From contig SHVT01000012.1 in the NCBI GenBank assembly GCA_009694125.1, positions 1 to 34,433 on the forward strand: DNA of 34,433 nucleotides. The letters run 5' to 3'. Source of the DNA: Rhodospirillaceae bacterium (GTDB taxonomy: Bacteria > Pseudomonadota > Alphaproteobacteria > CACIAM-22H2). The position numbers and the translations under genes were made by a program. Within the stretch, counting starts at the first letter, position 1; each line of letters starts with the position of its first letter. Positions 12,329 through 20,560 of the stretch are shown here, piece by piece. The notes under the pieces are model-generated. The model was not told the origin of the DNA, made no database searches, and saw only the letters and a list, made by a program, of their open reading frames with translations.

Positions 12329-13588
12329 TCAGGTCTTAACGATCATACCATCGGCCAGCGACAAGCGGAAAGCGCGGATGGCCGGGAATAGCCCGGCAAG
12401 GACGCCCCCACCCAGAACCGCCGCGAGGGCCGCCAGGTCCGCCGCCGATGGCGCCTCGATCGGCAGATAGAGTCCGTAACGGGAATCGACGACCGGGCGC
12501 ATGATCGAAAGTACGGTGTAAAGCAGCGCGGCACCGAGCGCGACGCCGGACCCCGTCAGCATCGCCGCCTCCGCCGTGAGCAGGCCGAGGATGGTCGCCG
12601 GGCGCGCGCCGACCGAGCGCAGAATAGCCATCTCGCGCCGCCTTTCGTTGAGCGTAGCCAGGATCGTCGTGACCATGCCGAGCAACGCGGTCAGCACGAC
12701 CATGAAGGAAACCGCGGCGAGCGCGGTTTCCGCGGTGCCGACCAGGGACCAGAGCTGCTGTAACGCCACGCCCGGCAGGATCGCCGACAGCGACTCTTCC
12801 TTGTATTCGTTGATCAGACGCTGCAATTGGAAGGCGTCGAGACGCGAGCGCAGCCCGATCATCGCCGCGGTCACGGATTTCGGCGCCAACTCCATTCGAC
12901 GCACTTGCTCCGCGTCGACCGTGCGACCGGGGATGCGCGCGCCGGTCTGCCAATCGACATGGATCGCCTCGATGCCTTCCAGGCCGACATGCACCGTGTG
13001 ATCGACCGGAGTGCCGGTCTTGGCGAGGATGCCGGCCACCCGGAATGGCTTTTCGTCATGCGGAGCGAAGGACGTGCTGCCGATGCCATGGCCGACGATG
13101 ATGGCGTCGCCAAGCCTATAGCCCAGTGCCGCCGCGACATCGGCGCCGAGCACGGCATCGAACAGATCGGCGAAGGGCACGCCGGCGGCGAAGGCGAGGC
13201 CTTGGCCTTGGCGATAGCGGTAGTGCTCGAAATATCCGGTCGTCGTCCCCATCACGCGGAAGCCGCGATGGCTGTCGCCCAGAGAGATCGGCACGATCCA
13301 GGCGATTTCCGGGAGCGCGGCGATCTCGCCATAGCTCTTCCAGGCGATGTTGTTGGTCGCGTCGCCGATGCGGAAGACGGAATAGAGCAGAAGCTGCACA
13401 TCGCCGGTGCGCGCGCCGACAATGAGATCGGTGCCGGAAATGGTATCGGCAAAGCTCTGCCGCGCGCCGTTTCGTACTTTCTCCACGCCCATCAACAGCA
13501 TCACGCTCACCGCGATTCCGAAGATGGTGAGCGACGCCGTGGGCCAGCGATTGAGCAGCGATTTCAGCGCGAGCCGCCCGACGATCAT
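12329..13588 (-). CDS. FtsX-type ABC transporter permease (PA4065-like)
   Basis: SGTDLIVGARTGDVQLLLYSVFRIGDATNNI...PISLGDSHRGFRVMGTTTGYFEHYRY; C-terminal FtsX TM segments; ATGA overlap with the ATPase gene. Confidence 0.9.
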   Translation of the reverse strand: MIVGRLALKSLLNRWPTASLTIFGIAVSVMLLMGVEKVRNGARQSFADTISGTDLIVGARTGDVQLLLYSVFRIGDATNNIAWKSYGEIAALPEIAWIVPISLGDSHRGFRVMGTTTGYFEHYRYRQGQGLAFAAGVPFADLFDAVLGADVAAALGYRLGDAIIVGHGIGSTSFAPHDEKPFRVAGILAKTGTPVDHTVHVGLEGIEAIHVDWQTGARIPGRTVDAEQVRRMELAPKSVTAAMIGLRSRLDAFQLQRLINEYKEESLSAILPGVALQQLWSLVGTAETALAAVSFMVVLTALLGMVTTILATLNERRREMAILRSVGARPATILGLLTAEAAMLTGSGVALGAALLYTVLSIMRPVVDSRYGLYLPIEAPSAADLAALAAVLGGGVLAGLFPAIRAFRLSLADGMIVKT

Positions 13589-18303: not shown

Positions 18304-19407
18304 ATGACCAACAATTTGGACGAACTGCCCGACGGCATTCCGGTCACCGTGCTAACCGGCTTTCTCGGCAGCGGCAAGACCACACTGCTTGCCCATCTGC
18401 TGCGCGATCCCGCATTGAAGGATACCGCCGTCATTATCAATGAGTTCGGCGAGATCGGCCTCGATCATCACCTGATCGAGCAGGTCAACGGCGAAGTCGT
18501 GGTGATGGAAAGCGGCTGCGTCTGCTGCACGATCCGCAGCGATCTCGGCAACACGCTGCGCAGCCTCTATCTGCGCCGCGCCCGCGGCGATGTGCCGGCG
18601 TTCAAACGGGTGGTGATCGAAACCACCGGCCTCGCCGACCCCGCGCCCATCGTCCAATTATTGATCGAAGATCCCCTGGTCGAGGCCTATTACCGGCTCG
18701 ACGGCATTATCGCGACCGTCGATGCGGTGAACGGGAAATGGCACCTTTTCACCGAGCCGCACGCTGTCAAGCAGGTCGCCGTCGCCGATCGCATCGTCCT
18801 GACCAAGACCGATCTGGCGCCGCGCGAGGCCGTCATTGAAATCGCGGGCCAAATCCAAGCGCTCAACCCCGCACCGCTGATCTTGGCGCTACATGGCCAG
18901 GTGGCGTCGGCGGCGCTGTTCAATGTCGGGCTCTATGACCCGACGACAAAAAGCGTCGATGTCCAGCGCTGGCTGCGCGACGAGGCCCATGCCGCCAAGA
19001 ACGCTCGCGACGACGCCCATGACCGCGACCATGCCCATGACCCCGCGTCGAAGCATGGCGGGCGGGCCGTCAGTCGCCATGACGCGCGCATCGCATCGAC
19101 CTGCCTTACCGCGACCGCGCCGCTCGATTGGGGCGGCTTTTCCTCGTGGCTAGACCAACTGCTCGCCGAGCGCGGCACCGACATCCTGCGGGTCAAGGGC
19201 ATCTTGAATGTCACCGGCGAAGACCGGCCGGTCGTGATCCACGGCGTGCAGCACCTTTTTCATCCTCCGGCACGGCTTGCGGCATGGCCGGACGAAGATC
19301 GCCGCTCGCGGCTGGTCTTCATCACGCGGGGTTTAGATCGGGCCTCGCTGGAGCGCAGCTTTGCCTCGCACCGGGAGCCGACGGGCTTACCGGCGGCCCC
19401 CGCCTGA
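18304..19407 (+). CDS. COG0523 (CobW/YjiA/ZigA-type) GTP-binding metallochaperone-like protein with His-rich linker
   Basis: TVLTGFLGSGKTTLL, INEFGEIGLDHHLIEQ, ESGCVCCTIRSDL, TKTDLA; linker DDAHDRDHAHDPASKHGGRAVSRHDAR; CobW_C domain. Confidence 0.94.
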   Translation: MTNNLDELPDGIPVTVLTGFLGSGKTTLLAHLLRDPALKDTAVIINEFGEIGLDHHLIEQVNGEVVVMESGCVCCTIRSDLGNTLRSLYLRRARGDVPAFKRVVIETTGLADPAPIVQLLIEDPLVEAYYRLDGIIATVDAVNGKWHLFTEPHAVKQVAVADRIVLTKTDLAPREAVIEIAGQIQALNPAPLILALHGQVASAALFNVGLYDPTTKSVDVQRWLRDEAHAAKNARDDAHDRDHAHDPASKHGGRAVSRHDARIASTCLTATAPLDWGGFSSWLDQLLAERGTDILRVKGILNVTGEDRPVVIHGVQHLFHPPARLAAWPDEDRRSRLVFITRGLDRASLERSFASHREPTGLPAAPA

Positions 19408-19454: not shown

Positions 19455-19468
19455 TTGATCTAGATCAA
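19455..19468. promoter_or_regulatory. FNR/FixK/Anr-type binding site
   Basis: TTGATCTAGATCAA, perfect 14-bp dyad matching TTGAT-N4-ATCAA; TATGTT -10-like hexamer at 19491-19496 places it at -41.5. Confidence 0.8.
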
Positions 19469-19502
19469 TTCATGCCGCGGCCGGATGGCGTATGTTTATT
19501 TT

Positions 19503-19570
19503 GTTCATGTCCCCCGACATGATTCCTCCACGCTAACTCGCCGGGCTCGGACGCCCGGCTTTTTCTTTTT
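19503..19570 (+). ncRNA. candidate small RNA with anti-SD motif (alpha-r8/suhB-like architecture)
   Basis: Hairpin CATGTC-CCCC-GACATG (19506-19521), single-stranded ATTCCTCCACGCTAACTC, then terminator; preceded by FNR box and -10. Confidence 0.65.
19540..19570 (+). terminator. intrinsic terminator
   Basis: GCCGGGC-TCGGAC-GCCCGGC followed by TTTTTCTTTTT. Confidence 0.9.
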
Positions 19571-19654
19571 CCGGCTAGTGCCCTGCCTGGGGCGCGGGGT
19601 GGGCGCGGGCATCGCCATTGATCGCCGCGGGCAAAGCCTTTAGCATGTTTGGTT

Positions 19655-20560
19655 ATGGCGTTCTCGATCCATTCCCTTGCGCGAGTGTTCGGCCTTTTCG
19701 CGGCGCTGGCGGCGGGGCTGGCGGCGGGGCCCGTGCGCGCCGCGGAATTGACCGCCACGCCGGGCAACGGCCTCAAACTTGCCTATGACGTCTACACCGG
19801 CGGGGTCCACGTCGTCGTCCTGGACGTCGGCTTGAGTTACGGCGCCGACGATTACAAGCTGACCGTTGCCGCCGAAACCCGCGGGTTCATCGGTTGGATG
19901 TTCCCCTGGCAATCCAAGATCACCTCCCACGGCCTCTTCAACGCCACCCAGGCGCTGCCATCGCTGTACCGCACCGACAGTTTGTTCCGCGGAACCAATC
20001 GGCTGGTCGAGATCGACTACGCCAAGAACGGGCTGAAAATCCGCATCGAGCCGCCGTCGGACGATGACGAACGCGACCGGGTCGGCGAGGACATGCGGCG
20101 GGGCACACTCGACCCGTTAAGTGGAATTTTCGCGGCCATCCGCGCCATCGCCGATGGCGGCGGTTGCGACCGCACCGTGCCGGTCTTCGACGGACGCCGC
20201 CGTTACGATTTCGTCGTCGATCGCGGCGGCCGCGAAAAGCTGGCGGCTTCGTCCTATTCGAGTTTTGCCGGCGATGCGCTGCTCTGCCATTTCCGCATGG
20301 AGCGCAGGGCCGGTTTCTGGCGTCAGGAACGCGCCGGAGAAGTCCGCGGGCTTGAGGACGGCCTGGTCTGGCTGGCGCCGGTCGCCGGAGGCACGTTGCC
20401 GGTGCCGGTGCGGGTTCAGGCGATCAGCCCCTTTGGCTCGGCATTCATGCATTTGCGCGACGCACAATCGCTGCCGCCCGCCAACGGCAAGATCAAAGCC
20501 TCCGTCCCCATCGGCTCCTCGGGGATCAAACCCGCGTCGCCGGTTGGCTCCAACGGCTGA
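19655..20560 (+). CDS. DUF3108-type periplasmic protein
   Basis: Signal peptide MAFSIHSLARVFGLFAALAAGLAAGPVRAAE; KLAYDVYTGGVHVVVLDVGLSYGADDYKLTVAAETRGFIGWMFPWQSKITSHG. Confidence 0.75.
   Translation: MAFSIHSLARVFGLFAALAAGLAAGPVRAAELTATPGNGLKLAYDVYTGGVHVVVLDVGLSYGADDYKLTVAAETRGFIGWMFPWQSKITSHGLFNATQALPSLYRTDSLFRGTNRLVEIDYAKNGLKIRIEPPSDDDERDRVGEDMRRGTLDPLSGIFAAIRAIADGGGCDRTVPVFDGRRRYDFVVDRGGREKLAASSYSSFAGDALLCHFRMERRAGFWRQERAGEVRGLEDGLVWLAPVAGGTLPVPVRVQAISPFGSAFMHLRDAQSLPPANGKIKASVPIGSSGIKPASPVGSNG

Follow-up and report, generated by a model that had tools for sequence, protein, structure and literature searches.

We consider it likely that the window, i.e., the whole 34,433-nt stretch of DNA that was analyzed, contains a gene for a small RNA (sRNA) of ~68 nt that is driven from a class II promoter by a regulator of the FNR/FixK class, and whose product would be a diverged paralogue of a LysR-adjacent, SorX-like sRNA that blocks ribosome-binding sites. 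On the sequence level, this reading is carried by the regulator box and its geometry, the fold of the RNA, the conservation within the genus, the kinship with LysR-linked RNAs, the regulator genes in congeners, and an Hfq gene in the source genome. The locus is probably a genuine and functional sRNA gene.

Regulator box, promoter geometry, and RNA unit

The sRNA block lies in the gap between a CobW-family gene and a DUF3108 gene, both on the plus strand (Table 1), and the cobW stop is followed by the dyad after 47 nt and by the RNA, on the same strand, after 95 nt. The sequence-only reading had stated that no ORF explains the block, and this was upheld, as a 103-aa minus-strand frame over the unit is disrupted in the relatives by indels of 1, 11, and 21 nt, and a short ORF on this strand, with its start at GGAGGAATCATG, varies in length (16, 80, and 67 codons in the three genomes compared) and diverges in sequence. 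This short ORF is the basis of a very improbable alternative, in which the conserved block represents the Shine–Dalgarno sequence (GGAGG) and the start of a small minus-strand gene, with CCUCC being merely the complement. A pattern scan matched such starts in Azonexus, Dechloromonas, and Sulfuritalea, but these read as normal starts of genes encoded on the opposite strand, and, besides the inconsistent frame, the U-run of the terminator on the plus strand and the homology to plus-strand sRNAs with paired changes in the hairpin speak against such a gene, which we dropped as a candidate.

Table 1. Positions of the putative sRNA gene, its predicted promoter elements, and the neighboring genes in the window
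Feature	Position	Strand	Basis
CobW-family protein gene, upstream neighbor	18304..19407	+	PF02492 and PF07683
FNR/FixK/DNR-class dyad TTGATCTAGATCAA	19455..19468, center 19461.5	.	exact TTGAT-N4-ATCAA match
-10-like hexamer TATGTT (relatives: TATGGT, TAAGGT)	19491..19496	+	weak; assigned from position
Predicted transcription start +1	19503, uncertainty ~2 nt	+	assigned from box and -10 geometry
5' hairpin UCAUGUC-CCCC-GACAUGA, 7 bp	19505..19522	+	MFE and centroid fold
Single-stranded linker UUCCUCCACGCUAACUC	19523..19539	+	unpaired in MFE and centroid fold
Intrinsic terminator, 7-bp GC stem and U5CU5 tail	19540..19570	+	terminator scan and fold
DUF3108 protein gene, downstream neighbor	19649..20560	+	PF11306

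The dyad TTGATCTAGATCAA is the only exact TTGAT-N4-ATCAA match in the window, in which 0.01 matches are expected from dinucleotide shuffles. Perfect dyads occur 7 times in the source genome (1.67 Mb), and 6 and 14 times in two congeners, which amounts to 27, as compared to none for the pattern read backwards. The box is compatible with the published FnrN/FixK consensus TTGANCNNGATCAA (PMC4999443), and its center at −41.5 relative to the start predicted at ~19503 corresponds to the geometry of a class II FNR/FixK promoter. The distance from the box to the −10-like hexamer is 22 nt in all three genomes, which is class II spacing. The perfect dyad, the TATGTT hexamer, and the −41.5 geometry for the predicted start had all been claimed from the sequence, and they were all borne out on that level. 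Control of the RNA gene by an FNR/FixK-class regulator is a plausible reading of this arrangement. As DNR/NnrR proteins recognize almost the same site as FNR/FixK, the inducing signal at the box could instead be nitric oxide.

The unit of ~68 nt that begins at G19503 consists of a 5' hairpin, a linker with CCUCC, and a terminator, and it folds with −24.6 kcal/mol, a stability that was not reached by any of 200 shuffles (−13.3 ± 2.6 kcal/mol; z −4.3). In the hairpin, U19505–C19511 pairs with G19516–A19522 around a CCCC loop; the hairpin CATGTC-CCCC-GACATG that had been described earlier is present, and it is one pair longer than claimed. The anti-Shine–Dalgarno motif CCUCC of the linker (19525–19529) is the presumed seed. 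The terminator stem GCCGGGC/GCCCGGC (19540–19559) is directly followed by U5CU5 on the plus strand, so that the unpaired CCUCC stretch and the perfect 7-bp stem with its U-run were both found as the sequence-only reading had placed them.

Conservation in the genus and kinship of the RNA

For comparison, the source genome (G000) and two congeners (G001 and G002) were used, and in both congeners the box, the spacing, and the RNA are found in identical arrangement at the same genomic place. Among the three genomes, the RNA is 95–97% identical, in comparison to 83–88% at third codon positions of the neighboring genes, and there is not a single indel from the dyad to the terminator, with indels occurring immediately outside on both sides. 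UUCCUCCACG is invariant in all three genomes, and the terminator loop varies with the stem being preserved. The box is kept as TTGATCCAGATCAA in G002 and has one off-consensus base in G001 (TTGATCCAGATCAT). This conservation supports the sRNA reading, albeit short of proof, as the closeness of the three genomes limits the power of box and hairpin conservation. The joint conservation of box, hairpin, and CCUCC in relatives, on which the first reading had made its claim depend, holds within the genus, apart from the altered base in G001, and the exact hairpin is not kept beyond the genus; when 85,462 species genomes were scanned for the hairpin-plus-CCUCC pattern, the two congeners were the only convincing matches.

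The comparison also bears on the possibility that the dyad drives the DUF3108 gene, with the hairpin and terminator serving as an attenuator in its leader. The DUF3108 gene does come next in the same orientation, but the distance from the terminator to this gene differs between the genomes through indels, and a promoter-like TTGATC-N17-TAGCAT (19618–19646; read by eye and below the strength required by the promoter scanner) lies ahead of the gene. Furthermore, a synteny search with the DUF3108 protein found the upstream RNA module only in the source genus and not with the homologues in other genera of the bacterial family, and the RNA has its homologues among stand-alone sRNAs. We regard an attenuator as quite improbable.

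With respect to the RNA family, the Rfam search, carried out at the gathering cut-off and down to E 10, gave no above-threshold family for the window RNA. The nearest family was SorX (RF02784), matched over its full length with 24.8 bits (E 4.5e-4), which is far under the gathering threshold of 46.6 bits, and the RNAs of the two relatives reached 23.0 and 21.7 bits with the SorX model. The sequence-only reading had likened the RNA by its layout to the alphaR8/suhB (MmgR) family and had proposed a check against RF00519 (threshold 41 bits). This assignment failed, as the RNA remained unmatched by suhB at the gathering cut-off and even up to E 10. A diverged alphaR8 (suhB/MmgR/SisA-D) sRNA would account for the common layout, in which a 5' hairpin and a terminator enclose a linker with the anti-Shine–Dalgarno core UUCCUCC, but the window RNA scored only 14 bits with a model built from genuine alphaR8 RNAs of its own bacterial family and, by this score, is not a member. 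The alphaR8 core 10-mer UUUCCUCCCU is absent, and AUUCCUCCAC is found in the window, with the agreement being limited to UUCCUCC. Without the terminator, the core resembles alphaR8 little more than expected by chance, as 534 to 859 of 5,000 dinucleotide shuffles did equally well. Moreover, the congeners own separate, genuine alphaR8 genes, and the copy that was checked, in G001, lies beside an N-formylglutamate amidohydrolase gene, whereas the window RNA is flanked by cobW and DUF3108. An alphaR8 identity is thus highly doubtful, and we dropped it.

A covariance model of the three genus sequences led to a coherent sRNA in many alphaproteobacteria. Of 14 loci that were inspected, 11 have a LysR gene upstream of this sRNA; two of the adjoining LysR proteins that were directly compared are 55% identical. 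A model of 28 such LysR-linked RNAs (R2), whose members had originally been found with a model of the window RNA and which is to that extent circular, gave 43.1 bits with the window RNA (E 9e-12, positions 1–75) and ~41 bits with the relatives, and at most 18 bits with the alphaR8 controls. Despite the circular discovery, the LysR-linked RNAs are a natural family. When the core without terminator was compared with the LysR-linked consensus, only 8 of 5,000 dinucleotide shuffles were as good, and one pair of the hairpin occurs as C-G, U-A, and G-C across the family, with compensatory changes on both sides. In the congeners, a true alphaR8 RNA, a LysR-linked copy (L039 and L040), and the window-type RNA are each found at a separate place; the window RNA has no LysR neighbor, and the LysR-linked copies are located elsewhere. 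The best reading of these sequence comparisons is that the window RNA represents a diverged, third and FNR-controlled paralogue of the LysR-adjacent, SorX-like sRNA. With the LysR-adjacent sRNA (consensus ACGUCUCCCAGACGUGAAGCCUCCCUGUUNAACUNGCCGGGC, alignment A4), it shares a hairpin with C-rich loop, a GA-NN-CCUCC linker, and AACUCGCCGGGC at the start of the terminator, but the linker GCCUCCCUGUU is replaced by UUCCUCCACG, and promoter and genomic place are different as well.

The widespread LysR-downstream sRNA (consensus ACGUCUCCCAGACGUGAAGCCUCCCUGUU; e.g., L033, L036, L039, L045, and L053) is itself under the Rfam thresholds of SorX and suhB, and it seems to have no Rfam family of its own. 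Its position resembles that of AbcR1, which has been described adjoining LsrB/VtlR (PMC8844928), but the published seed motifs of AbcR differ. We also observed tandem SorX-like sRNAs in single loci (L048, 1500–1570 and 1698–1777; L051, minus strand, 1502–1572 and 1761–1832).

Recurrence in genus g57

A pattern search for box, CCUCC, and U-run in 385 genomes of the class matched 5 genomes, as compared to 2 for the backwards control, and gave one convincing case beyond the source genus (G073), with the remaining matches being chance-like on inspection. This case belongs to the genus g57 of the family f51, which is probably Azospirillum, and in this family 40 of the 79 sampled genomes match, every one of them from g57. 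In each of the 25 g57 loci that were fetched by DNA similarity, one or more CCUCC sRNAs are preceded by an FNR box, and as the matched stretch is the RNA alone in many of these loci, the box was outside the search query there. When the box was made a requirement, the set comprised 42 distinct sRNA genes, with between one and three in each locus. The first half-site TTGAT is present in 41 of the 42, the best −10-like hexamer is found 21–23 nt past the box in 39, and CCUCC follows 43–46 nt past the box. Tandem copies each have their own box. The arrays are found at L140–L164 (e.g., L164, 1420–1800; L150, 1420–1900), with the unit CUUGUCUCUAACCCUCCCUGUAUUCACUUA plus terminator and near-invariant FNR boxes.

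The g57 sRNAs thus share the class II FNR box, the CCUCC linker, and the terminator with the window RNA, but they differ in copy number and in their 5' part CUUGUCUCUAAC, and the LysR-linked model recognizes them only weakly (12–24 bits). Rfam gave no match for the three loci tested, and the alignment of their core with that of the window RNA detected no similarity. The missing Rfam match and the weak score with the LysR-linked model give no grounds for assuming a common FNR-controlled ancestor, and promoter class and RNA type seem to have been combined independently in the source genus and g57. FNR-class control of anti-Shine–Dalgarno sRNAs hence seems to recur in Alphaproteobacteria.

The tandem arrangement is also relevant for the alternative that the window RNA is a 3'-UTR-derived sRNA, or mere terminator region of cobW, released by RNase E like SorX from the ompR-1 mRNA, with the dyad adding little or nothing. 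The RNA does lie on the cobW strand close behind the stop, the LysR-linked relatives are also situated just 3' of a same-strand gene, and SorX, which comes closest among the Rfam families, originates from a 3' UTR (PMC9438474, PMC8625941). However, a perfect dyad at exact class II spacing is found in this short intergenic region, the stretch from box to RNA is free of the indels that occur on both sides, and g57 repeats box, −10 spacing, and RNA in tandem. We therefore judge a 3'-UTR origin to be unlikely. Our preferred reading remains a dedicated, predicted FNR-class promoter for the window RNA, in which it would differ from SorX of Rhodobacter sphaeroides, an Hfq-bound sRNA with which it has the CUCC core in common.

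Regulator, proposed mechanism, and significance

Genes for an FNR/FixK-type regulator are present in G001 and G002, and in both genomes a TTGATCCAGATCAA box precedes the operon of the regulator gene. The G002 regulator has an N-terminal CxxC...C motif, CDTCGARDHSAC, in place of which the G001 regulator (L074, 159–887, minus strand) has CDTYGVRDHTAC, with one presumed cluster cysteine changed to tyrosine. In the source genome, which is 75% complete, no FNR-type gene was recognized, and one Crp-type domain was found. An Hfq gene was found in G000 and G002. As a side observation, a small membrane-protein-like frame follows just past a TTGATCCAGATCAA box in L073, L076, and L077, with a CCTCC in the leader that faces its own GGAGG and that could form a self-sequestering ribosome site. 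L076 (source genome, contig C33) and L077 (G001, contig C14) are 99.75% identical over 2 kb, in comparison to ~92% for neighboring genes of the two species, and L073 is a second, 90% identical version of the L076 region in the source genome; this probably reflects a contig that was binned wrongly.

Based on the sequence, we infer transcription, an oxygen response, Hfq dependence, and target repression as follows. When oxygen is scarce, a dimer of an FNR/FixK-class regulator would occupy the dyad at −41.5 and bring in RNA polymerase by class II activation, and a transcript of ~68 nt would run from ~19503 to the terminator. Its linker UUCCUCC, exposed between hairpin and terminator, would pair with the Shine–Dalgarno sequence GGAGGAA of target mRNAs, probably with the help of Hfq, so that ribosome access would be blocked and selected proteins would not be made at low oxygen. 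In evolutionary terms, a paralogue of the LysR-adjacent, SorX-like sRNA would have diverged and gained its own FNR-class promoter. Pairing at ribosome-binding sites is the best inference for the window RNA by analogy: SisA, whose SisA-D siblings have unrelated promoters, represses translation at ribosome-binding sites via UUUCCUCCCU with Hfq (PMC12559287), AbcR1/2 act at ribosome-binding sites with two anti-Shine–Dalgarno motifs (PMC8844928), and SorX inhibits the translation of potA (PMC9438474).

When 343 matched conserved gene starts from the readable portions of two genomes were scanned for duplexes, complementarity to the linker was no higher than to permuted seeds, with 76 to 100 of 100 such controls being equal or better, and we therefore do not claim any target. 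With this reservation, the top conserved pairing is UGGAGGAAUC ahead of a small secreted protein (L239) that is CusF-like by eye. Some cytochrome-related genes are likewise among the conserved pairings, and two neighboring genes, one encoding a cytochrome c-like protein and the other a flavoprotein that resembles sulfide dehydrogenase (by eye; L188, near 13104–13452, minus-strand offsets), are among the best ones, all being leads from a scan that was overall not above controls.

FNR-controlled sRNAs are known, including FnrS and others, and FnrS of E. coli represses genes that are unneeded without oxygen (PMC8139620). The likeness to the window RNA is a functional analogy only, as no FnrS-type family matched the window RNA in Rfam and no sequence relation was found. 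The central idea of the sequence-only reading, an FNR/FixK-driven CCUCC sRNA that works like FnrS, gains support at the sequence level from the conservation in congeners, the regulator genes with their operon dyads, and the g57 set. Its remark that FNR-type control is undescribed for the RNA family needs a correction: in Rhodobacter sphaeroides, FnrL ChIP-seq revealed binding at the promoter regions of RSs0019 and RSs2461, for which an effect on expression is not established (PMC4263372), and RSs2461 is SorX (PMC5036791). Taken together, these two reports provide one experimental hint that links the FNR class to a SorX-like RNA. In the literature that we searched, in which few subscription journals were represented, neither an FNR promoter dedicated to a SorX-like sRNA nor the g57 array was found to be described.

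We lean towards the view that Alphaproteobacteria repeatedly put CCUCC sRNAs under FNR/FixK-class promoters and thereby possess a separately evolved equivalent of enterobacterial FnrS for repression at low oxygen, which would consist here of a single genus-specific, SorX-like paralogue and in g57 of an undescribed multi-copy array. If true, oxygen control by FNR/FixK and anti-Shine–Dalgarno sRNAs, both of which are well studied in Alphaproteobacteria, would be joined in one circuit, an independent counterpart to FnrS, and regulon maps built on protein-coding genes would have overlooked such an sRNA, an example being the FnrN/FixK regulon text, which makes no mention of sRNAs (PMC4999443). It could also account for the FnrL ChIP peak at SorX, which so far lacks an explanation. 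The better testing ground is g57, with cultivable species that appear to have up to three such genes per locus and near-invariant FNR boxes, and a CCUCC sRNA made at low oxygen may be a recurring strategy in Alphaproteobacteria.
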